NCBI GenBank assembly: GCA_029252405.1
Contig: JAQXBM010000027.1
Location: forward strand, 1 to 64,000
Source of the DNA: Crocinitomicaceae bacterium
GTDB lineage: Bacteria > Bacteroidota > Bacteroidia > Flavobacteriales_D > Crocinitomicaceae
Direction of reading: 5' to 3'
Length of the DNA stretch: 64,000 nucleotides
Shown here piece after piece: positions 4,505 through 41,016 of the stretch. Each line of letters begins with the position of its first letter. The first letter of the stretch is position 1. Position numbers and translations under genes: made by a program. The notes beneath the pieces were generated by a model, which saw nothing but the letters and a program-made list of their open reading frames with translations, had not been told where the DNA came from and did not search any database.

Positions 4505-5308
4505 ATGGTATACATGCGTGAGAAGCTTCACAATGTAATTTTCGGGACAACATCAAAGTCAGGTCGTAATTTTGACCTTATATTATTGGTGCTCATTCTG
4601 CTTTCTGTACTTATCGTAATGATAGAGAGTGTGAAGGTTTGGGGGGAAGAATACCCACTTTTCTTCTACTACGCAGAATGGGGATTTACGATCTTTTTCA
4701 CGGTTGAATATGTCCTAAGAATATCGGTTTCTCATAAACCCTTGAAATATATTGTTAGTTCATGGGGAATCATAGACCTGCTCTCCATTCTACCGACGTA
4801 TTTAGCGCCGTTTATTAGTGGATATGCATCTTTACGTGCAATTCGGGCGTTGAGGCTTTTAAGGGTGTTTAGAATCCTTAAATTGAATCGATTTACTTCA
4901 GAGTCTCAAGCCTTATTCCATTCTTTGCGGGCATCCTACTACAAAATAATGGTGTTCTTCTTTTTCGTGTTCATGATTATGATCCTTACGGGGACGTTGA
5001 TGTATGTGATTGAAGGAGGTGAACACGGTTTTGATAGTATTCCTGATAGTATTTATTGGGCAATTGTTACGACTACCACAGTTGGATATGGAGATGTGGT
5101 TCCTACAACGGAAGTCGGTAAGATGTTGGCTTCGCTAATGATGATCACGGGTTATGTAATTATCGCTGTTCCCACGGGCTTGATAACCGTCGGTATGGCT
5201 CGATACAAAGATGATGGCAAAAAGGACAACTTGTGCGAGTTCTGTGAGCATGACAACCCGTTTGGGTCAGTTTACTGCAACCAATGCGGTCATGAGATGA
5301 TCAATTGA
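4505..5308 (+). CDS. Voltage-gated K+ channel with C-terminal zinc ribbon
   Basis: A 267-aa six-helix ion channel of the Kv type in the inner membrane. S1-S3 occupy about residues 24-105. S4 carries regularly spaced arginines (RAIRALRLLRVFRILKLNR), the voltage-sensor pattern. S5 is followed by the pore helix and the selectivity filter TTVGYGD, then S6. After S6 there is a short cytoplasmic tail ending in a CX2C-X11-CX2C zinc ribbon (CEFCEHDNPFGSVYCNQCG). ATG 4505 or the ATG nine bases further in (4514) could be the start. The channel assignment is firm; the role of the ribbon (assembly or sensing) is not known. The next gene follows after 80 bases on the same strand. Confidence 0.92.
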   Translation: MVYMREKLHNVIFGTTSKSGRNFDLILLVLILLSVLIVMIESVKVWGEEYPLFFYYAEWGFTIFFTVEYVLRISVSHKPLKYIVSSWGIIDLLSILPTYLAPFISGYASLRAIRALRLLRVFRILKLNRFTSESQALFHSLRASYYKIMVFFFFVFMIMILTGTLMYVIEGGEHGFDSIPDSIYWAIVTTTTVGYGDVVPTTEVGKMLASLMMITGYVIIAVPTGLITVGMARYKDDGKKDNLCEFCEHDNPFGSVYCNQCGHEMIN

Positions 5309-5388
5309 TCCATGATTTTCTTTTTTGGTGTGTTAATCAACATCCAATAACATGTAACCTCTTTCAATTTCTTCCTTATTTTGGTGAT

Positions 5389-5943
5389 ATGAAACGCTTT
5401 GTATTTCTTTTCGTTGTTTTCATGCCCTTGATTGGGTATTCGCAGATCGAGAAGCGATACTTAGATTCGTTGGATTCTGTTCCTCATCGTCCAATGGTAA
5501 ATAACCCTGTAGTGAACTTGCGTTATTCGCTTGGTGTATTCCCAGAAATTCAAATGATCAATAGTCCTGTAATTGGAGTAAGTGTGTCCTATGCCCGCCT
5601 GTTAGATGTTGAATGGTCTGCATTTGGAAGAGGAGTCAATCTCTGTTTTGAATTCGATCCACTTGAAAAGTTTTACGGGCCTAAGCTCACCGTTTGGAGT
5701 GCTATGTTTGCTTTGATTGTAGGAGGAAACCTCAGCATGAGCGCCATGTACTATTTTCAGGATAGCAGAAGTGGTTTGTATCTGCGACCTGAAATTGGAA
5801 TCGGAATTCCATGCATTCACTTGAAATACGGATACGGTTTTCGAGTTGTTGGAGATGAGATGACTGGAATTCAACGACACTCTCTCTCCTTGGGAGCGCA
5901 CATTCCAATCTTCAAGTATGATAAAAGAGCCAAAAAACCCTGA
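5389..5943 (+). CDS. Unknown outer-membrane-like protein with signal peptide
   Basis: A 184-aa protein of unrecognised family. The frame is open upstream to a TTG at 5305, but the ATG at 5389 starts a clean signal peptide (MKRFVFLFVVFMPLIGYSQ) with a signal peptidase I-like site after YSQ, so I chose it. The rest alternates short polar and aromatic/glycine-rich stretches (for example GLYLRPEIGIGIP, LKYGYGF), as in small outer-membrane beta-barrels. The stop codon lies in the left arm of a terminator hairpin. No function can be assigned. Confidence 0.6.
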   Translation: MKRFVFLFVVFMPLIGYSQIEKRYLDSLDSVPHRPMVNNPVVNLRYSLGVFPEIQMINSPVIGVSVSYARLLDVEWSAFGRGVNLCFEFDPLEKFYGPKLTVWSAMFALIVGGNLSMSAMYYFQDSRSGLYLRPEIGIGIPCIHLKYGYGFRVVGDEMTGIQRHSLSLGAHIPIFKYDKRAKKP

Positions 5944-8476: not shown

Positions 8477-9805
8477 TTATGTATTTAATTTTGTCTTTAA
8501 ATCTTCAATTAGGCTTGCAAAGAAACTCTTTTTTTCTGGAATTGTCAACATTAATTGCTCATAAGCTACAATTGCCTTCGGATAATTCCCTTGCATGGCA
8601 TATACTTTTGCCAAAGTTTCACTTACAGGAACCGTTTCTTCGGTCAAACTTTTCTTGGCTTTTTTAGGGGCTGAGAAGAATTCTTGCTTTGGTCGCTCTT
8701 GCTCACCAAATAAGGGGTTTGAAGGATCGAAGTCGGAAAATTCAGGGACTACCTTTGCTGTAACTACTTCCTCTTCAGGCTCAACATAGTTGTCGTTTGC
8801 TTGAAGCCAGCTTGTGAAAGATAAATCTTCTTCTATCTGATCATTATCGGATTCGATTTTTCCTGTTTCTGTCGTTTCTTTCCGATTCTGAGCCTCTTTT
8901 TCCTTCAGTTTGCGCTCTTCTTCAGGGCTTAAACCGTCAAGTTGATAATTGGCGGCATAGATGTGATGCTCGATCGTTTGATCTAATTGATCTTTCACGT
9001 CCGCTTCAACTTCTGGCTCATCTTTGAATGCTTCTTCAACAGAATAAAGTTCTTCCTTTTCAGGCTCTTTTTCTGAGACGATTTCAGTCGTTTCTGATTC
9101 TTCAATTACATCTTCAGTAATCTGTGTTTCCTCAACAACTGGCTCTGATTCGCTTGAATCAACAACCGTTTCTTCAACCTCGGGGACTTCTGAAATAGGT
9201 TCAGTCCAAGCGGATACTGTTTCCTTTATTTCGTTACTCTCTGGTTCAATTTCAGGTTCATCAACCACCAGTTCAGGCTCGTTCGGCACAATTTCCTCTT
9301 TTTCCAACTTGGGAGGGCTGAGCGGAGTCGAGGTCTGGCTTTCTTCAACAATCCGATTGCTATCGGATTCTTCCTCATCTTTGGTTTCAGCTACGGGTGC
9401 AACGACTTCTTTTTCTTCTTCTTGATCTTGAGTTTCTTCGTTTTCCGCCTTACGAGGGCTGAGCGGAGCCGATGCCTGGCTTTCTTCCTCTACCGTTTCT
9501 ATGATCTCCTCAACTATTTCTTCGACTTTTTCTTCCTCAACAACTGTTGCAGGCTCAGCTGAAACTGAATGCGCTGATTCAATCAAATTGAAAAGCTGCG
9601 CACGATCAGTAATTCGAAACGAGTGCTTTTTGAGTTCATCTTCAAAATGAATATCACCAGCCTGTTTGAGTGATTGAAGGTAAAGAATTGAGAATAGCTG
9701 CGTGTACGGATATTTCTCCGCCAATTGTTTCAGATCTTCAGAATCTTGAGCCTTGGTGATCGAAGGATTCTCAATTCGAGACGCTATTTCGTTCACATTC
9801 AACAT
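8477..9805 (-). CDS. Acidic low-complexity protein with C-terminal TPR motif
   Basis: A 442-aa protein of unknown function found between lptE and secG. The ATG at 9805 overlaps the lptE stop by one base (TAATG), supporting it over the upstream TTG. Residues 1-90 are helical, residues ~90-330 are Glu/Val/Ser-rich low complexity, and the C-terminus (ETLAKVYAMQGNYPKAIVAYEQLM) is one TPR-like hairpin. Two similar segments, SQTSTPLSPPKLEKEE and SQASAPLSPRKAENEE, break the acidic stretch and come from a genomic palindromic repeat (see 9308 and 9449). No signal peptide or membrane helix is seen, so it is probably cytoplasmic. Its place in a conserved envelope operon suggests a scaffolding role, but this is inference. 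Confidence 0.8.
   Translation of the reverse strand: MLNVNEIASRIENPSITKAQDSEDLKQLAEKYPYTQLFSILYLQSLKQAGDIHFEDELKKHSFRITDRAQLFNLIESAHSVSAEPATVVEEEKVEEIVEEIIETVEEESQASAPLSPRKAENEETQDQEEEKEVVAPVAETKDEEESDSNRIVEESQTSTPLSPPKLEKEEIVPNEPELVVDEPEIEPESNEIKETVSAWTEPISEVPEVEETVVDSSESEPVVEETQITEDVIEESETTEIVSEKEPEKEELYSVEEAFKDEPEVEADVKDQLDQTIEHHIYAANYQLDGLSPEEERKLKEKEAQNRKETTETGKIESDNDQIEEDLSFTSWLQANDNYVEPEEEVVTAKVVPEFSDFDPSNPLFGEQERPKQEFFSAPKKAKKSLTEETVPVSETLAKVYAMQGNYPKAIVAYEQLMLTIPEKKSFFASLIEDLKTKLNT
9308..9346. repeat. REP-like palindromic repeat inside coding sequence, copy A
   Basis: Contains GGGAGGGCTGAGCGGAGTCG, of the same family as the intergenic inverted repeat at 24797-24870: the minus-strand word CTCAGCCCTCCCAAG is identical in both. 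It encodes SQTSTPLSPPKL in frame. Confidence 0.7.
9449..9487. repeat. REP-like palindromic repeat inside coding sequence, copy B
   Basis: Contains GAGGGCTGAGCGGAGCCGAT followed by the same CTGGCTTTCTTC flank as copy A. It encodes SQASAPLSPRK in frame. Confidence 0.7.
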
Positions 9806-34772: not shown

Positions 34773-36191
34773 TTACTTGACGACGAACTTCTGTTGTTGA
34801 AACCCTTCGAATTGGATGAAATAGATTCCAGGAGTTAACTCCTGAACATTTACCTCGTTTCCAGAACCGTTAAGGACAAGCCTGCCTTGAGCGTTCAAAA
34901 CAGAATACGCTTGGCTGTTATCAATTCCATCAATCGTTAATACTTCGCGCACTGGATTCGGGTGCACTTGAATCGTTTCCAATCCAATTTTGTCCACACC
35001 AACAGAGCTCCAAGAACCTTTGGTGTACATGATCTTATCGAGCTCAGCGTCGTGATAAACCAAATGAATCGATCCATCCGTTCCAATAACAACATCTGGC
35101 TTTGTTTGAATACCGTTTAACTCAAAAACCGAGGCTGCATTCGTTGATTGCCAGTTGCTCATTCCTGCAGTTGAGAAATTGTACCAAATATCCGTTTCAC
35201 CTTGATCTGTGTGTTCCCAAACCAAAAGGACTGAATCACCATAATTACTCAAATGTGGATGATTCATGGTCATCGTTGTGCCCAATTCTGCTGCCTGTAA
35301 TTCGGTGTAAATAATCGAATCAGAGAGGTCATCCGCTACTAAGTAGATCATTTCATCGCCGATACCTTTACTCATGTACGTTGAATACAATTGTGATCCA
35401 TTTAAGACCAAATCTCCTCCTGTTGCGGGACACGAAGCAAACCACCAACTGTGATCATCCAAGCTAATCTGCGTATCGAAGCTCATTCCACCGTTTGTGG
35501 ATACTCCAGCCTTCATGTCACGAATGTTATTTTCATCGTTTCGAAAAGACATGACCTGATAATCTGAATTCCCAACTATTGCAGGAGGACAGCAGTAGCA
35601 TGCTTCTTCACCGAAATCGGCACTAACACTCGCAGCAGTAGCTGAAAAAGTCTGGCCGCCATCAGTTGAGCGACGAACGATGTACTGTGGATTACTACCA
35701 CCAGAACCGTGGGTCATGTAGGTTACCAAGACCATGTTTCCGTCGTAAGCTTCTACGCTTGGGTACATGGCGAGTTCATTAGCTTGTTCCACTTGGATCT
35801 TTGGTTCCCAAGTCAAACCTCCATCAACAGATCGACGAATAAACACTTTTCCCGAAGTGACGTCTCCCGTTTTGTAAACTGTGTACAATGTGTTTCCGTC
35901 CGCCACGATATCCGTTCCACCCCAATCGTAGGAGAGAACATTCGCATCATTCAAAATGACTGGAGATAAGAATGCTGTTCCATCCCATTTGGAGAAGAAA
36001 TAATCTTTGTTCGAAGTTCCTGTAAATTGAGCCCAAATCAAAACGGGGGTGTTATCCGCGAGCACATCAATTCTTGGTCGATGAGCATTGGTAGATCCGG
36101 TTACTTCAACTGGCGGAGACCAAACGATGGCACTCTGAGAATAACCGAAAAACGAAGCACAGATAATCAGGAATAGTGTTAGAGATTTCAT
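34773..36191 (-). CDS. Secreted Asp-box (BNR/sialidase-like) protein with T9SS sorting domain
   Basis: A 472-aa surface or secreted protein. The signal peptide is MKSLTLFLIICASFFGYSQ. Several Asp-box motifs (SVDGGLTWEP, STDGGQTFSA, STNGGMSFDT) mark a beta-propeller of the BNR/sialidase-like type; there is no clear catalytic Arg triad or Tyr, so hydrolase activity is uncertain. The C-terminus (VHPNPVREVLTIDG, ELTPGIYFIQFEGFQQQKFVVK) is a type A T9SS sorting domain. It is probably monocistronic. Confidence 0.85.
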   Translation of the reverse strand: MKSLTLFLIICASFFGYSQSAIVWSPPVEVTGSTNAHRPRIDVLADNTPVLIWAQFTGTSNKDYFFSKWDGTAFLSPVILNDANVLSYDWGGTDIVADGNTLYTVYKTGDVTSGKVFIRRSVDGGLTWEPKIQVEQANELAMYPSVEAYDGNMVLVTYMTHGSGGSNPQYIVRRSTDGGQTFSATAASVSADFGEEACYCCPPAIVGNSDYQVMSFRNDENNIRDMKAGVSTNGGMSFDTQISLDDHSWWFASCPATGGDLVLNGSQLYSTYMSKGIGDEMIYLVADDLSDSIIYTELQAAELGTTMTMNHPHLSNYGDSVLLVWEHTDQGETDIWYNFSTAGMSNWQSTNAASVFELNGIQTKPDVVIGTDGSIHLVYHDAELDKIMYTKGSWSSVGVDKIGLETIQVHPNPVREVLTIDGIDNSQAYSVLNAQGRLVLNGSGNEVNVQELTPGIYFIQFEGFQQQKFVVK

Positions 36192-36606: not shown

Positions 36607-37455
36607 ATGGGCTTAACATCAGAGCAGCTAACCTCGGTAAGGACGAGGAATGAACTCATTGGTATTGCTGAAGAAAATGGGATCAATGTTGACAAAACCC
36701 TGAGGAAATTAAAGTACGAAGCAGAACTCGCCATGCTTCAGGCGGAATTTGTAAACCTTCAAAAGTGGATCGCGCAAAAGAAGATGCGTGTTGCATTGAT
36801 TTTTGAGGGACGTGATGCCGCGGGAAAGGGAGGTTCGATCAAACGATTCAAAGAACACCTTAACCCTCGATCTTCTCGAGTAGTGGCTTTGTCAAGACCA
36901 ACAGAGGTGGAAACAGGACAATGGTACTTCAGACGATACATCAAAGAATTACCAAATCCTGGAGAGATTGTCTTGTTTGATCGTAGCTGGTACAACCGCG
37001 CAGTAGTCGAACCAGTGATGGGATTTTGCACCAAAGCGCAATACGATCAATTCATGATTCAAGTTCCAGAATTCGAGCACTTACTCTACGAGGATAACTT
37101 GAAAATCATCAAATTTTGGTTTTCCATCTCAAAAAAGGAGCAGAACAAGCGTTTCGAGGCACGACTCAATAACCCGTTGAAGCGCTGGAAATTCAGTCCT
37201 GTGGATAAGAAAGGACAGGAATTGTGGGATAAATACACGCACTACAAAGAAGAAATGTTCAGTAAGACGCACACGAACTTCAGTCCATGGATCATTGTGA
37301 AAACCAATGATAAGAGACAAGCGAGGCTTGAGAGCATGCGCTATGTGCTTTCACAATTTGATTACGAAGGGAAGGGGGAATCGAAGGTGTCCCTCACGCC
37401 CGATCCAAATGTGATCATGAGGTACCACAGAAGTGCAGTTCAAATCGATATTTAA
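36607..37455 (+). CDS. Polyphosphate kinase 2 (first copy)
   Basis: A 282-aa PPK2 enzyme, which transfers phosphate between polyphosphate and nucleotides. Walker A is in FEGRDAAGKGGSIKRF (about residues 63-78) and Walker B in LFDRSWYNRAVVEPVMGF (about 123-140), with the conserved ERF/LNNPLKRWKFSPVD lid region. The length fits one-domain PPK2 class I enzymes that use nucleoside diphosphates. A six-base gap to the second copy shows co-transcription. Confidence 0.94.
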   Translation: MGLTSEQLTSVRTRNELIGIAEENGINVDKTLRKLKYEAELAMLQAEFVNLQKWIAQKKMRVALIFEGRDAAGKGGSIKRFKEHLNPRSSRVVALSRPTEVETGQWYFRRYIKELPNPGEIVLFDRSWYNRAVVEPVMGFCTKAQYDQFMIQVPEFEHLLYEDNLKIIKFWFSISKKEQNKRFEARLNNPLKRWKFSPVDKKGQELWDKYTHYKEEMFSKTHTNFSPWIIVKTNDKRQARLESMRYVLSQFDYEGKGESKVSLTPDPNVIMRYHRSAVQIDI

Positions 37456-37460
37456 GGAAA

Positions 37461-38243
37461 ATGATAAAAGAAGAAGTACAATTAAGCGCCGAAGATGTTG
37501 AGTTGTTGAACTCAAAGGATGGTTTACACGCGCTATTAAGAAATAAGAAAGTCGATTGCCGAAAAGCCTTGAATGAGATAAAGTACATTACCGAACTGCG
37601 AGCGTATCAGGAAGAACTGATCAAGCTTCAAAATTGGGTAATCGAAAATGGCAAAAAGGTTGTAATTATTTTTGAAGGACTCGATGCCGCTGGAAAAGGT
37701 GGAGCGATTCGAAGAATTACTGAGTACATCAATCCGCGACATTTTAAAATTGTTGCCTTGGATATTCCCACAGAGGATGAAAGCAAGCAATGGTTTTTCC
37801 AACGATACATCAATCGTCTACCTAAGCCGGGTGAGATCGTTTTCTTTGATAGAAGTTGGTACAATAGAGCAGTCGTGGAGCCCGTAAATGGTTTTTGCAC
37901 GCAAAAGGAGTACGAAGTGTTTATGGATCAAGTGAACAACTTCGAGCAAATGTTGGTTCAGTCGGATACCCACCTGTTGAAGATTTATTTCTCCATTTCG
38001 AAAGAGGAACAGGCGAAGCGTTTTAAGGACATCAAAAACAATCCTTTGAAGCGTTGGAAAATTACACCTGTTGACGAGAAAGCACAAGAGTTGTGGGATG
38101 AATACACCGATTACAAAGACAAAATGTTCGAGTCAACAACAACAGATCACGCTCCATGGAAAATCATCCGTGCGAACAAGAAGTCGCATGCTCGTTTGGA
38201 GGCAATTAAATACATTATTGAGAATATTCCATACAAGGAGTAA
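37461..38243 (+). CDS. Polyphosphate kinase 2 (second copy)
   Basis: A 260-aa paralogue of the preceding kinase, with Walker A FEGLDAAGKGGAIRRI, Walker B FFDRSWYNRAVVEPVNGF and the lid KNNPLKRWKITPVD intact. It differs enough through its N-terminal helical part (residues 1-50) that the pair is an old duplication or a heteromer. Substrate preference (ADP, GDP or AMP) cannot be read reliably from the sequence. A strong terminator follows. Confidence 0.94.
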   Translation: MIKEEVQLSAEDVELLNSKDGLHALLRNKKVDCRKALNEIKYITELRAYQEELIKLQNWVIENGKKVVIIFEGLDAAGKGGAIRRITEYINPRHFKIVALDIPTEDESKQWFFQRYINRLPKPGEIVFFDRSWYNRAVVEPVNGFCTQKEYEVFMDQVNNFEQMLVQSDTHLLKIYFSISKEEQAKRFKDIKNNPLKRWKITPVDEKAQELWDEYTDYKDKMFESTTTDHAPWKIIRANKKSHARLEAIKYIIENIPYKE

Positions 38244-38336: not shown

Positions 38337-38375
38337 GGGTTTTTACGCGGTTTATAAATCCACGTAAAAACCCCT
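38337..38375. promoter_or_regulatory. 39-bp palindrome upstream of the DUF1843-peptide cassette
   Basis: Arms GGGGTTTTTACG (38337-38348) and CGTAAAAACCCC (38364-38375) are perfectly complementary, and the centre contains a second palindrome (TTTATAAA at 38352-38359). It ends 55 bases before the first peptide ATG and has no T-tract, so it is more likely an operator or a 5' leader structure than a terminator. Confidence 0.65.
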
Positions 38376-38430
38376 AGATGAGAAAGTTGAGGGATACATA
38401 TCTTAATTGCGAACATTTAAAAACCTAACT

Positions 38431-38598
38431 ATGGGAGTCACAACAATGTATGCAGCGAGCATTCGAAAAGCCGTTGCGTCAAATGACATCAATCAAATGA
38501 AAGCCGTTTTAGAACAGGCGAAAAAGCAGGTACGTGAACAAAAAGATCTTGCAGTAGCCCTTGTGGAATTGCAGGAAGCGATCGACCGAATGAAGTAA
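38431..38598 (+). CDS. DUF1843-like peptide 1 (candidate RiPP precursor)
   Basis: A 55-aa protein starting MGVTTMYAASIRKAVASND. I use ATG 38431; the frame back to 38407 starts with TTG and adds nothing conserved. It is alpha-helical and charged: IRKAVASND, QMKAVLEQAKKQ, DLAVALVELQEAIDRMK. It resembles the DUF1843 family (PYGxAIxxAIxSGDxxxMK...), though the first PYG and SGD motifs read MYA and SND. There is no Cys and no signal peptide. It shares a 23-base identical run (38497-38519) with peptide 2. Its place before a radical SAM/SPASM gene suggests it is modified after translation. Confidence 0.75.
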   Translation: MGVTTMYAASIRKAVASNDINQMKAVLEQAKKQVREQKDLAVALVELQEAIDRMK

Positions 38599-38617
38599 TC
38601 ACTAAAAACTAACAATT

Positions 38618-38785
38618 ATGGGAGCACATCCACTGCACGCAGCCACCATGCGTGAAGCAATTGCAAGCAATGACCTTGCAAAAATGAAAGCCGTTTTAGA
38701 ACAGGCCAAAGGCACAATTCGAGAACAAGCTGACTTATTAGTTGCGCTTGTTGAACTCGAAGAAGCAATTCAAAAACTCAAGTAA
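38618..38785 (+). CDS. DUF1843-like peptide 2 (candidate RiPP precursor)
   Basis: A 55-aa protein, MGAHPLHAATMREAIASNDL, 19 bases after peptide 1. The core IASNDLAKMKAVLEQAK and the tail LVALVELEEAIQKLK align without gaps to the other two peptides, so this is a real gene. The variable positions cluster in the first 12 residues and around residues 31-38. That contrast, conserved scaffold with variable ends, is what one expects of a family of modified peptides, but could also fit a helical partner protein. Confidence 0.75.
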   Translation: MGAHPLHAATMREAIASNDLAKMKAVLEQAKGTIREQADLLVALVELEEAIQKLK

Positions 38786-38795
38786 ATCAAGAATT

Positions 38796-38966
38796 ATGTC
38801 GGGTATTTTACCGTATGGCACAGCCATCAGAAAAGCAATCGCGAGCAGAAATGTTGATCAGATGAAAGCAACGCTTGATCAAACGAAACAGTTCGTGAAA
38901 GAACAAGGAGACATCGCAGTAGCTCTCGTAGAGCTGCAGGAGGCAATCGAAAAACTTGAAAAGTAA
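38796..38966 (+). CDS. DUF1843-like peptide 3 (candidate RiPP precursor)
   Basis: A 56-aa protein starting at ATG 38796, ten bases after peptide 2; the frame extends upstream into peptide 2 but that part is a shadow. It is the copy closest to DUF1843: MSGILPYGTAIRKAIASRN keeps PYG, and EQGDIAVALVELQEAI keeps a GD(I/L) motif that peptide 1 (KDL) and 2 (ADL) have lost. There is no Cys. A terminator hairpin follows nine bases after the stop, before the radical SAM gene. Confidence 0.8.
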   Translation: MSGILPYGTAIRKAIASRNVDQMKATLDQTKQFVKEQGDIAVALVELQEAIEKLEK

Positions 38967-38974
38967 TTAACAAC

Positions 38975-39002
38975 AGGGGTGAGCTCAAGCTTGCCCCTTT
39001 TC
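38975..39002 (+). terminator. Partial terminator between peptides and maturase
   Basis: AGGGGTGAGC (38975-38984), loop TCAA, GCTTGCCCCT (38989-38998), ten pairs including two wobble pairs, followed by TTTT. Readthrough would give far more peptide mRNA than maturase mRNA, a usual RiPP arrangement. Confidence 0.75.
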
Positions 39003-39017
39003 TAACCACACTATTCT

Positions 39018-40466
39018 ATGACTGAATTATCATCAAACCGATATCGAGTTAAGAGCGATTACGAGAAAACCGTTCCTGTTCACGTTGTTTGGGAAATTAC
39101 TCTTGCCTGTAATTTGAAATGTACGCACTGTGGATCACGCGCGGGCAAGGTGCGTCCTGGAGAGCTCACGACCGAACAGTGTTTTGAAATTATTGATCAA
39201 CTCGAAAAGTTAGGAACGCGCGAAATAACAATTATTGGTGGTGAAGCCTTCTTAAGAAAAGATTGGTTGGACATTATTAGAAGAATTGATAAAGCAGGAA
39301 TAGAATGCTCGATGCAATCCGGAGCTTACAATTTGAATGAAAAGCGCATCCTTCAGGCAAAAGATGCCGGAATAAAGAATATCGGGATCTCTGTTGATGG
39401 TCTTCCTGAAGTGCACAACAAAATTCGGGGGAGAGCAGATTCTTATGATCACGCGATGCGAGGTCTGGATCTTCTGAAAAAGAATGGGATTGTCTCAAGT
39501 GTAAATACAGTCATCACAAAAGAAAATCAATTTCAACTTGACGAGATGTTGGATGATTTCATTGCTCGCGGAATTAAAAACTGGCAAATTCAATTGGTCG
39601 TGGCCATGGGAAATGCTGTTGAAAACGACAATCACATCATTCAGCCCTACGAATTGATTGATCTTTACGATAGGTTAATCAAAGTGTATCAACGTGCACT
39701 GGCGAATGGAATTCTCATTCAAGCTGGGAACAACATTGGTTACTACGGGCCGTATGAGCACATCTGGCGACAAGGAAAAGAAGCACATTGGTCAGGTTGT
39801 CAAGCAGGACATACTTCTATCGGAATTGAAGCTGATGGAGTTATCAAAGGTTGTCCATCATTGCCAACAACCGACTATACGGGTGGAAACATCAAAGAAA
39901 TGAGCCTGGAAGATATTTGGAACCACAGCGAGCAGATGAAGTTTACACGTCACCGAAATGAAGACGAACTATGGGGTAATTGCAAAACGTGTTATTATTC
40001 TTCCGTATGCATGTCTGGATGTACCTGGACGAGCCACGTTTTATTTGGTAAAAGAGGAAACAATCCATTCTGCCATTACCGCGCGCTGAAATTGCACGAA
40101 GAAGGAAAAATTGAGCACGTTCGTAAAGTACAGGAAGCTGAAGGAAAGCCGTTCGATCATGGTCTGTTCGAAATTGTCATGACAGATTTCAACGGAAACG
40201 TACTGGAGGTTCAGAACCCACTGACCGATACCAACGATACATCCGCTCCAATGCAAGAAGATCTGCGCAAACCAAAAGGACTCGAGCTTTGTCACGGATG
40301 CAAGCAGCATGTTCATCTAGAGACAGAAACGTGCCCTCACTGTGGAGACAATGTTCCCGAGGAAAAAAGACGTCACGAAGAAGGTATGATCGAGGTGCGC
40401 GAAGCATACGAGAAAGTGCTGAATCTTTTGAATAAGGAAAATGTGATGATCGATGAAGGGGGGTGA
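39018..40466 (+). CDS. Radical SAM/SPASM maturase with C-terminal zinc ribbon
   Basis: A 482-aa radical SAM enzyme. CX3CX2C is at Cys31-35-38 (ACNLKCTHCGSRAG), and the TIM-barrel glycine motif is TIIGGEAFLRKDW. The SPASM domain is complete for two auxiliary 4Fe-4S clusters: GCQAGHTSIGIEADGVIKGC, then CKTCYYSSVCMSGC (CX2CX5CX3C) and FCHY. Beyond the SPASM end there is a ~65-residue tail with a zinc ribbon (LCHGCKQHVHLETETCPHCG) and a terminal helix, an addition not standard for SPASM enzymes. Such enzymes cross-link or epimerise peptides. The three tandem peptides before it are its most likely substrates; I recall a maturase family associated with GDL-motif peptides, which should be checked. 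Confidence 0.92.
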   Translation: MTELSSNRYRVKSDYEKTVPVHVVWEITLACNLKCTHCGSRAGKVRPGELTTEQCFEIIDQLEKLGTREITIIGGEAFLRKDWLDIIRRIDKAGIECSMQSGAYNLNEKRILQAKDAGIKNIGISVDGLPEVHNKIRGRADSYDHAMRGLDLLKKNGIVSSVNTVITKENQFQLDEMLDDFIARGIKNWQIQLVVAMGNAVENDNHIIQPYELIDLYDRLIKVYQRALANGILIQAGNNIGYYGPYEHIWRQGKEAHWSGCQAGHTSIGIEADGVIKGCPSLPTTDYTGGNIKEMSLEDIWNHSEQMKFTRHRNEDELWGNCKTCYYSSVCMSGCTWTSHVLFGKRGNNPFCHYRALKLHEEGKIEHVRKVQEAEGKPFDHGLFEIVMTDFNGNVLEVQNPLTDTNDTSAPMQEDLRKPKGLELCHGCKQHVHLETETCPHCGDNVPEEKRRHEEGMIEVREAYEKVLNLLNKENVMIDEGG

Positions 40467-41016
40467 AAAAGTAGAGGGTATTATTCAGACAATTGAGGAT
40501 AATATGGACTTAGGAGAGATTAGCGTTCGGCACGGAATCCACTCATTTAAGTACGGTACTTCTGAGTTTTTGAAGGAAATTTTTGAGCTTGTAAACCCCA
40601 GTACCGATGATGTTTTTTATGATTTGGGCAGCGGCTATGGAATCGTGTTATTCTATGGTGCTGAACATTATCCTGAAGCACAATTCAAAGGAATAGAAAT
40701 TCTCGATGAGCGTTTTGATATGAGCGCATCATTGCTGGAAGAAAATGGACTGAAGAACATTGAACTCTTCAATGAGGACATGTTTGACTGTGATTTTTCA
40801 GACGGGACCATCTTTTATATTTACAATCCTCTTTATGCAGAGTTTTATCCGAAATTGCTGCAACGCCTTTGCGAAGTGCAAAAGAAACATCCAATTACAG
40901 TAATTGCAGAATCCAGATGCAGGGTTTTCGACGAAACGGATTGGTTAATTAAATACGATGCAATTTCTATTGATGTGGTTCGACAAATTCACTTCTACCG
41001 AAGCCAGTCCGCTTAA
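40453..41016 (+). CDS. SAM-dependent methyltransferase in the peptide cassette
   Basis: A 187-aa class I methyltransferase, without the usual C-terminal extra domains. SAM motif I is FYDLGSGYGIVLFYGA (about residues 60-75), the acidic loop after strand 2 is FKGIEILDERFD, and motif IV is FYIYNPLYAEFYP. Substrate is unclear; Dot1-like or RMT-type enzymes look similar at this size. The ATG lies inside the radical SAM gene (14-base overlap), so the two are translated together, and a role in finishing the modified peptide is likely. Its stop overlaps that of the convergent transglycosylase. Confidence 0.88.
   Translation: MKGGEKVEGIIQTIEDNMDLGEISVRHGIHSFKYGTSEFLKEIFELVNPSTDDVFYDLGSGYGIVLFYGAEHYPEAQFKGIEILDERFDMSASLLEENGLKNIELFNEDMFDCDFSDGTIFYIYNPLYAEFYPKLLQRLCEVQKKHPITVIAESRCRVFDETDWLIKYDAISIDVVRQIHFYRSQSA

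Follow-up and report, generated by a model that had tools for sequence, protein, structure and literature searches.

A putative leaderless splicease cassette with DUF1843 peptides in a Crocinitomicaceae bacterium

The DNA analysed here, hereafter called the window, is a stretch of 64,000 nucleotides of contig JAQXBM010000027.1 from a Crocinitomicaceae bacterium (GCA_029252405.1). At positions 38,337-41,016 it carries a small cassette in which the genes of three peptides of the DUF1843 family (PF08898) are followed by that of a radical S-adenosylmethionine (SAM) enzyme with a SPASM domain and then by a methyltransferase gene, the start of which overlaps the end of the enzyme gene by 14 bases (Table 1). 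An initial annotation had described three tandem open reading frames (ORFs) of 55, 55 and 56 codons with a likeness to DUF1843, the SPASM gene and the overlapping methyltransferase, and all of this holds. The DUF1843 stretches of the peptides, P1 to P3, align without gaps, and all three score above the Pfam gathering score of 23.3 bits. The annotation had also read the arrangement as that of a ribosomally synthesized and post-translationally modified peptide. This is right in outline, but the strict form with leader, core, protease and exporter is not evident: a boundary between leader and core is not visible by eye in P1 to P3, and Pfam searches of the 15 window proteins encoded between 32.9 and 47.8 kb, one of them without a match, revealed neither a peptide exporter nor a peptide protease, although such genes may lie in another part of the genome.

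Table 1. Genes and other features of the cassette, in window coordinates
Feature	Coordinates	Strand	Basis
Peptide 1 (P1), 55 amino acids, DUF1843, Met6-Tyr7-Ala8, Lys31	38431..38598	+	ATG start; PF08898 47.6 bits
Peptide 2 (P2), 55 amino acids, DUF1843, Leu6-His7-Ala8, Lys31	38618..38785	+	ATG start; PF08898 37.5 bits
Peptide 3 (P3), 56 amino acids, DUF1843, Pro6-Tyr7-Gly8, Lys31	38796..38966	+	ATG start; PF08898 46.2 bits
Radical SAM/SPASM enzyme, 482 amino acids, DUF1843 clade, splicease-like	39018..40466	+	PF04055, PF13186, TIGR03913, tree
C-terminal zinc ribbon of the enzyme, C425-C442	40290..40343	+	Four invariant Cys; model
Class I SAM-dependent methyltransferase, 187 amino acids, protein-lysine-methyltransferase-like	40453..41016	+	PF08123 DOT1 31.2 bits
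Inverted repeat/hairpin between polyphosphate kinase 2 gene and P1	38335..38375	+	Minimum free energy -22.8 kcal/mol, 13-pair outer stem
Stem-loop between P3 and enzyme gene, terminator/attenuator-like	38975..38998	+	10 pairs, -16.5 kcal/mol, then TTTTC

Related loci (numbered with L; genomes with G) were taken from a scan with one genome per GTDB species, which gave the best 80 loci of 438 relatives. Five loci from plasmids or other genomes (L017-L019, L022 and L023) and the window bring the set to 86. An iterated hidden Markov model (HMM) of the peptide collects 217 DUF1843 copies from 84 of these loci, one to five in each, three being the commonest number (43/84). At the start of the first helix all copies have a motif X-Tyr-Z. 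The central residue is tyrosine in 216 copies, and the only copy lacking it is P2 of the window, which has histidine. X is Leu (130), Pro (73), Met (13) or Ala (1), and Z is Gly (130), Ala (81), Met (5) or Asp (1). All 73 Pro-Tyr copies continue with Gly; after Leu-Tyr comes Ala (75), Gly (53), Met (1) or Asp (1). Of the 84 loci, 71 contain one or more Pro-Tyr copies and 79 one or more copies with X-Tyr-Gly. The codon at motif position 7 is TAT in P1 (38449-38451) and P3 (38814-38816), and CAC in P2 (38636-38638).

The tyrosine stands out by other measures as well. An HMM from which the motif columns had been removed, built from the same copies, gave 212 matches with tyrosine in 209, valine in two and histidine in one. 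After clustering at 70% identity, 67 of 68 peptides have the tyrosine, and its column is the most informative of the peptide (4.21 bits), followed by that of an alanine (3.49 bits). Elsewhere in the clustered peptides tyrosine occupies 33 of 3227 positions. In the AlphaFold model of P3 (mean predicted local distance difference test score, pLDDT, 75.3) residues 6-17, 20-37 and 41-55 form helices and residues 1-4 have a pLDDT below 50, which places the motif at the junction of a flexible end and helix 1. A Foldseek search with this model gave no match at E ≤0.001. Proteins made up of two or three DUF1843-like repeats flank the enzyme gene on both sides in the Undibacterium-type loci L073, L079, L082, L083 and L092, and each repeat has its own LYA, MYA, PYG or LYG site.

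The enzyme contains the CxxxCxxC motif (C31, C35 and C38) and seven cysteines in the SPASM region (positions 261, 279, 322, 325, 331, 335 and 352); PF04055 and PF13186 both score above cut-off, and the cysteines are invariant among 31 aligned enzymes. Its model (pLDDT 84.6) displays an ordinary SPASM fold with SkfB, PqqE and SuiB among the nearest solved structures, and is uninformative on chemistry. Among the NCBIfam models the best is TIGR03913 with 529.3 bits (residues 7-459, ribbon included, curated cut-off 591.75), followed by TIGR04103 with 441.1 (cut-off 725) and a third family with 168.7. The Bacteroidota enzymes of L017 (534.9) and L022 (533.7) also fall below the TIGR03913 cut-off, as do all six enzymes found in the genus of genome G343, which include that of L017 or L022; those of L018, L066, L071 and L086 are above it. 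The window thus belongs to a branch of the family that is incompletely covered by the model.

The initial annotation had mentioned a maturase family named for GDL peptides, and TIGR03913 as best model together with the adjacent DUF1843 genes bears this out, but the score is below cut-off and the literal G-D-L is absent. By our reading of the family name this motif falls at columns 14-16, where the window peptides have N-D-I, N-D-L and R-N-V; among the 217 copies column 14 is G in 153 and N in 53. The window resembles TIGR03913 systems in the nearly full-length match, the DUF1843 genes directly upstream, the same zinc ribbon and the single cluster per genome where this was tested. It differs from them in its score, the missing G-D-L, the methyltransferase that follows and the lack of a fusion to DUF1842.

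In a tree of 62 rows the clade of the DUF1843-type enzymes has TIGR04103 (nif11-3) as its sister clade (support 95/81). The two clades have individual supports of 99/99 and 100/99, and both lie apart from NirJ, PqqE, MftC, TIGR04053 and TIGR04133. We take TIGR04103 (nif11-class maturase 3, PlpX family) to be the same family as InterPro entry IPR026482. Thirteen loci have a TIGR04103 match over the cut-off, and all 13 contain a precursor-like ORF with LYG/MYG-type motifs near its end; the three precursors that were run against Pfam are all Nif11. With the DUF1843 HMM the nif11-type loci give no match (best E 0.14), so there is no sequence kinship between the two families of substrates. Of 244 cyanobacterial genomes 18 have TIGR04103 matches, and a search of a phage collection for the nif11-type enzyme gave no match. 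According to the accessible text of PMC11002830, PlpX is a SPASM enzyme belonging to IPR026482, and its excision of tyramine at Xaa-Tyr-Gly leaves an α-keto amide. MYG and LYG are listed as natural sites of PlpXY in the part of PMC10533398 that is available, and the end of the Nostoc C057 precursor (annotated as Nif11-like), ALYGLPPELF, resembles the splice tags printed there. Unrelated substrates of sister enzymes thus converge on X-Tyr-Gly, and a common chemistry is the simplest cause.

With TIGR04103 taken as their family, the PlpXY systems and the window have in common sister enzymes, X-Tyr-Gly sites in the precursors, and a SPASM radical SAM enzyme together with a small partner protein or domain. 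Of the three peptides P3 (PYG) has the X-Tyr-Gly of the PlpXY sites, P1 has MYA only and P2 (LHA) lacks it; P3 is the likeliest substrate. Unlike PlpXY precursors, P1 to P3 are DUF1843 proteins of 55-56 amino acids without a Nif11 leader, and the window has a zinc ribbon in place of PlpY. The site is close to the N-terminal end of a small protein made of helices, and both Tyr-Ala and Pro-Tyr-Gly are frequent among the DUF1843 copies.

The zinc ribbon was rightly recognised in the initial annotation, and its guess of a docking function is reasonable, but the ribbon is not an extra of this enzyme. It is a mark of the DUF1843 clade and a family feature. The four cysteines of its CxxC...CxxC pattern (C425, C428, C439 and C442) are invariant in 31 aligned enzymes, and a long helix is predicted after it (446-480). 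The ribbon is fused to the C-terminus in 84 of 86 enzymes. In the two exceptions, L084 and L086, a separate ribbon gene comes right after the enzyme gene with a GTGA stop/start overlap, and on a viral contig (L130) a free-standing ribbon ORF has its ATG overlapping the end of the enzyme gene. None of the nif11-type enzymes inspected has a C-terminal ribbon; 14 of 19 nif11-type loci (the 13 over cut-off and Nostoc) have instead a PlpY-like ORF 3' of the enzyme, which was found in none of the 86 DUF1843-type loci, window included (best E 0.83). The separate ribbon genes occupy the slot held by PlpY in nif11-type loci. Fusion, fission and position taken together suggest that the ribbon works as a partner of the enzyme and most likely docks the substrate instead of PlpY.

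L130 and a plasmid locus vary this layout. Positions 2640-4394 of L130, a metagenomic contig, encode a DUF1843-like peptide (MLMYGVALNEAIARG, identified by eye), the enzyme and the separate ribbon ORF. A relative on a Tropicibacter plasmid (L021, 4692-6314) has its ribbon at the N-terminus instead and lies beside other radical SAM and peptidase genes; there is no annotated DUF1843 copy at this locus, and a downstream frame of 289 codons includes an xYG site (VLYGAD).

Enzyme and peptides occur together. The enzyme was found in six of 199 genomes from the genus of G343, the enzyme of which clusters with Flavobacterium in the tree. DUF1843 is present in the same six genomes with no discordant case, so the cassette is not a product of chance. 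Among 25 genomes reached through the loci, 21 have DUF1843 at E ≤1e-5, with the copies listed in one cluster each as judged by eye. The other four are those of L052 and L070, which have weak copies, and of L084 and L086. These last two, from Myxococcota, have no DUF1843; just upstream of the enzyme lies a protein with two repeats, ALYGVFI/PLYGVFI or PMYGIFI/AMYGVVF. Peptides living apart from a radical SAM neighbour had been named at the outset as the observation that would undo the proposed cassette, and the pairing stood in both the 199 single-genus genomes and the 25 locus genomes. Their co-occurrence with the enzyme points to the peptides as its substrates.

The peptide family ranges over Bacteroidota, Acidobacteria, cyanobacteria and Proteobacteria, and two loci are located on viral contigs. 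The enzyme is rare in the host family of the window (1/150 genomes). DUF1843 matches in ORFs of 743-782 amino acids from five Bacteroidota genomes, and an extra one in G343 (E ~5e-4), were all six dropped as chance; the two that were inspected look like monomeric isocitrate dehydrogenase. This leaves 3 of 395 genomes with genuine DUF1843.

We regard it as likely that the locus is a leaderless splicease cassette in which tyramine is excised at X-Tyr-Gly/Ala of the DUF1843 peptides. The enzyme would dock its substrates through the C-terminal zinc ribbon and the helix behind it, and generate a 5'-deoxyadenosyl radical. A tyramine equivalent (C8H9NO, about -135.07 Da) would then be excised at X6-Tyr7-Gly/Ala8, just before helix 1, and the leftover carbonyl rejoined to residue X, giving an α-keto-β-amino residue derived from Pro in P3 and Met in P1. 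The tyramine route is expected to leave P2, which has His at this site, unspliced. The methyltransferase would subsequently methylate a side chain of the same peptides.

The products we favour are small intact intracellular proteins bearing a ketoamide, since no exporter or peptide protease was recognised among the 15 window proteins searched. A related view concerns the role of these proteins: they might be structural or self-assembling subunits, the modification serving assembly rather than a secreted bioactive peptide. This is compatible with splicing, and its probability overlaps with that of the splicease cassette; we find it quite possible, though on balance we would not expect it. The same absence of exporter and protease favours it, as does the resemblance of the DUF1842 fusions and the multi-repeat proteins to proteins rather than leader-core peptides. 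According to the accessible part of PMC10994174, PF08898 was chosen for study as repeated operon paralogs, a pattern proposed for self-assembly. Against this, the text available there gives the recombinant DUF1842-DUF1843 protein as monomeric with no higher assembly and its terminal domain as unresolved (PMC10994174). That protein was made in E. coli, presumably in the absence of the enzyme and thus unmodified, and a modified form may for this reason have gone unseen. DUF1842/DUF1843 genes are, as far as the available excerpts go, strongly upregulated at high density in Chromobacterium subtsugae (PMC12114271) and upregulated towards stationary phase in Burkholderia thailandensis (PMC12322963).

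Of the 25 Bacteroidota loci, 20 have the methyltransferase (METHYLTRANSFERASE) directly 3' of the enzyme: the window, Aureibacter, two Aquimarina, Mucilaginibacter, 13 Flavobacterium, G343 and G245. Three Kordia loci, Flavobacterium L037 and Segetibacter lack it, and tblastn detected no remnant of it in L026, L027, L037, L043 and L044. With weaker relatives at L054, L057, L060 and L101 the total is 24 of 86 loci. It is a Bacteroidota accessory; in view of this lineage-specific occurrence, the second modification that the initial annotation had assigned to it is not a core step. Its DOT1 score exceeds the PF08123 cut-off of 23 bits, and its sequence neighbours in the PDB include protein-lysine methyltransferases, the best match being a putative L11 methyltransferase. 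It differs from the archaeal aKMT type in scoring far below the NF041081 cut-off (37.3 vs 200).

Where present, the methyltransferase probably adds a second mark to the same peptides. All 46 copies from loci with the methyltransferase have lysine at the position 24 residues after the motif tyrosine (Lys31 in P1 to P3), as do 11 of the 171 other copies; the contrast with other phyla is confounded by descent. The residue is Glu in the three Kordia loci without the methyltransferase. Lys31 is the best candidate for the methylation site, though a guess that we think more likely wrong than right. That the methyltransferase is a hitch-hiker unrelated to the peptides appears unlikely. Its absence from five Bacteroidota loci, the lack of a strong match in the 61 other loci and the lysine kept in two loci without it (L037 and L044) would suit a hitch-hiker. 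However, among the 199 genomes of the G343 genus it is confined to five, all cassette carriers, in each of which it adjoins the enzyme (the sixth carrier lacks it). Moreover, the gene overlaps the enzyme gene in the window, and the weaker relatives in the cyanobacterial loci L057 and L060 also follow the enzyme.

Several observations weigh against tyramine excision. TIGR03913 and TIGR04103 are separate named families, and the window enzyme is below the cut-off of both. Their sister grouping is moderately supported, and the outgroup branches are very long, which leaves the side of the root unsure. L125 and L126, sub-cut-off matches to TIGR04103, branch outside both clades. Among the sub-cut-off TIGR04103 loci a clear xYG repeat ORF, coding for five KYG repeats, is found in L123 only; L127 is the DUF1843-type locus of L057, and the rest have no clear precursor. 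The five nif11-type loci lacking a PlpY-like ORF (5/19) are all sub-cut-off. The motif is not always X-Tyr-Gly, as 81 of 217 copies have Tyr-Ala and 73 have Pro at X; the literature, as far as accessible, did not tell whether PlpX accepts either. His7 of P2 cannot lose tyramine. The 86 loci are partly redundant, with identical peptides in L018 and L058 and several genera sampled repeatedly. The tyrosine might also owe its conservation to a different radical reaction or to folding.

The enzyme might perform another modification at or near the tyrosine or elsewhere, such as a tyrosine-centred cross-link (C-C, C-O or C-N) or an epimerisation. The chemistry of SPASM radical SAM enzymes is diverse, with SkfB, PqqE and SuiB among the nearest structures here, and a near-invariant tyrosine fits any tyrosine chemistry. 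In the available text of PMC12114271 the DUF1842/DUF1843 operon of Chromobacterium subtsugae is assigned, by assumption, to an XYE maturase system. On the other hand, the nearest characterised clade is that of the spliceases, by a wide score gap and by the tree, and among the best 25 of 85 NCBIfam models with a match none bears the name XYE. The column next in conservation is that of an alanine, whereas a fixed cross-link would require another reactive residue besides the tyrosine. Unrelated precursors converging on X-Tyr-Gly likewise speak against other chemistries, and we judge them improbable. The cross-linking suggested in the initial annotation is therefore unsupported and probably wrong; the nearest characterised relative, a splicease, and the single near-invariant tyrosine in X-Tyr-Gly/Ala both point to tyramine excision. 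That the peptides are bacteriocin-immunity-like or toxin-like proteins is very improbable, as the PF08951 (Enterocin A immunity) matches of P1 (18.1 bits) and P2 (16.4 bits) are below the cut-off of 22.1 and reflect a helical resemblance only, Foldseek gave nothing at its threshold and no toxin partner was noticed.

NCBIfam and Pfam already have names for the enzyme family and for its peptide partners, and splicing of proteins is reportedly already in print. No literature tying DUF1843, TIGR03913 or GDL peptides to tyramine excision was found among the sources covered, which left out most subscription papers, and a splicease reading of the DUF1843/TIGR03913 family may already have been published. 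New, with computed support, are the near-invariant X-Tyr-Gly/Ala site and its convergence with nif11-type precursors, the exchange of ribbon and PlpY, the methyltransferase branch of the Bacteroidota and the Tyr-to-His copy P2. A Pfam family of unknown function, and an NCBIfam enzyme so far named only after its neighbour, would thereby acquire a specific chemistry that is cheap to falsify, with about 135.07 Da lost at a single named tyrosine, and P2 is a ready-made negative control for it. If true, backbone-spliced, ketone-bearing small proteins would be common cell components beyond the natural products of cyanobacteria. The exchange of ribbon and PlpY hints at a leaderless substrate recognition that would be useful for protein labelling. 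The accessible portion of PMC11117315 attributes protease inhibition to spliceotide products. A far-reaching idea, which we consider decidedly unlikely, is that DUF1843 operons encode matched sets in which each small protein would carry a different electrophilic keto-β residue, often one derived from Pro and others from Leu or Met. The ketoamides would bond reversibly in the cell, for example with lysines of partner paralogs; the Bacteroidota methyltransferase would guard Lys31 and tune this bonding, and P2 would be a natural unspliced partner.

Two non-coding elements accompany the cassette. The inverted repeat upstream of P1, located after the terminator of the polyphosphate kinase 2 genes, is possibly a leader-RNA or operator element. 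The stem-loop before the enzyme gene, initially described as a hairpin terminator, is present, but its T run is short and it is not conserved; it is not listed by the terminator scan, because only TTTTC comes after it. A conserved terminator at this position was rejected: a similar element is found in only 11 of 76 gaps between peptide and enzyme genes, with 2.1 expected from simple shuffles. Eight of the 84 peptide-bearing loci were left out of this test: six with gaps of less than 25 bases, L022 (minus strand) and L070.

Other genes recur around the related loci. In L022 two genes (9013-9672 and 5108-5920) have no Pfam match; in 15 Flavobacterium-type loci members of their families lie on either side of the cassette, the centre-to-centre distance being about 1.5-1.9 kb on the upstream and 1.7-3.0 kb on the downstream side. 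A tyrosinase-domain gene of L022 (11170-13032) belongs to a family with members in five Flavobacterium-type loci, where they precede the enzyme by about 4.4-4.7 kb. A DUF1842 protein near a Bacteroidota cassette (L041, 2001-2468) is part of a cluster that spans five Flavobacterium-type loci and ties these to the DUF1842-DUF1843 fusions of Proteobacteria.

In the window two tandem polyphosphate kinase 2 (PPK2) genes (36607-38243), both above the TIGR03707 cut-off, lie immediately 5' of the cassette. The pair is retained in three genomes of the same genus (G524, G1009 and G540) without an adjoining cassette. None of the 11 other window genes searched, from cassette and flanks, was found in the 5.4-7.0 kb around the pair in these genomes, and no clean empty site was seen. 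Further upstream the minus strand (34773-36191) encodes a protein that looks secreted and carries a Por secretion C-terminal sorting domain (PF18962, 36.3 bits against a cut-off of 27).

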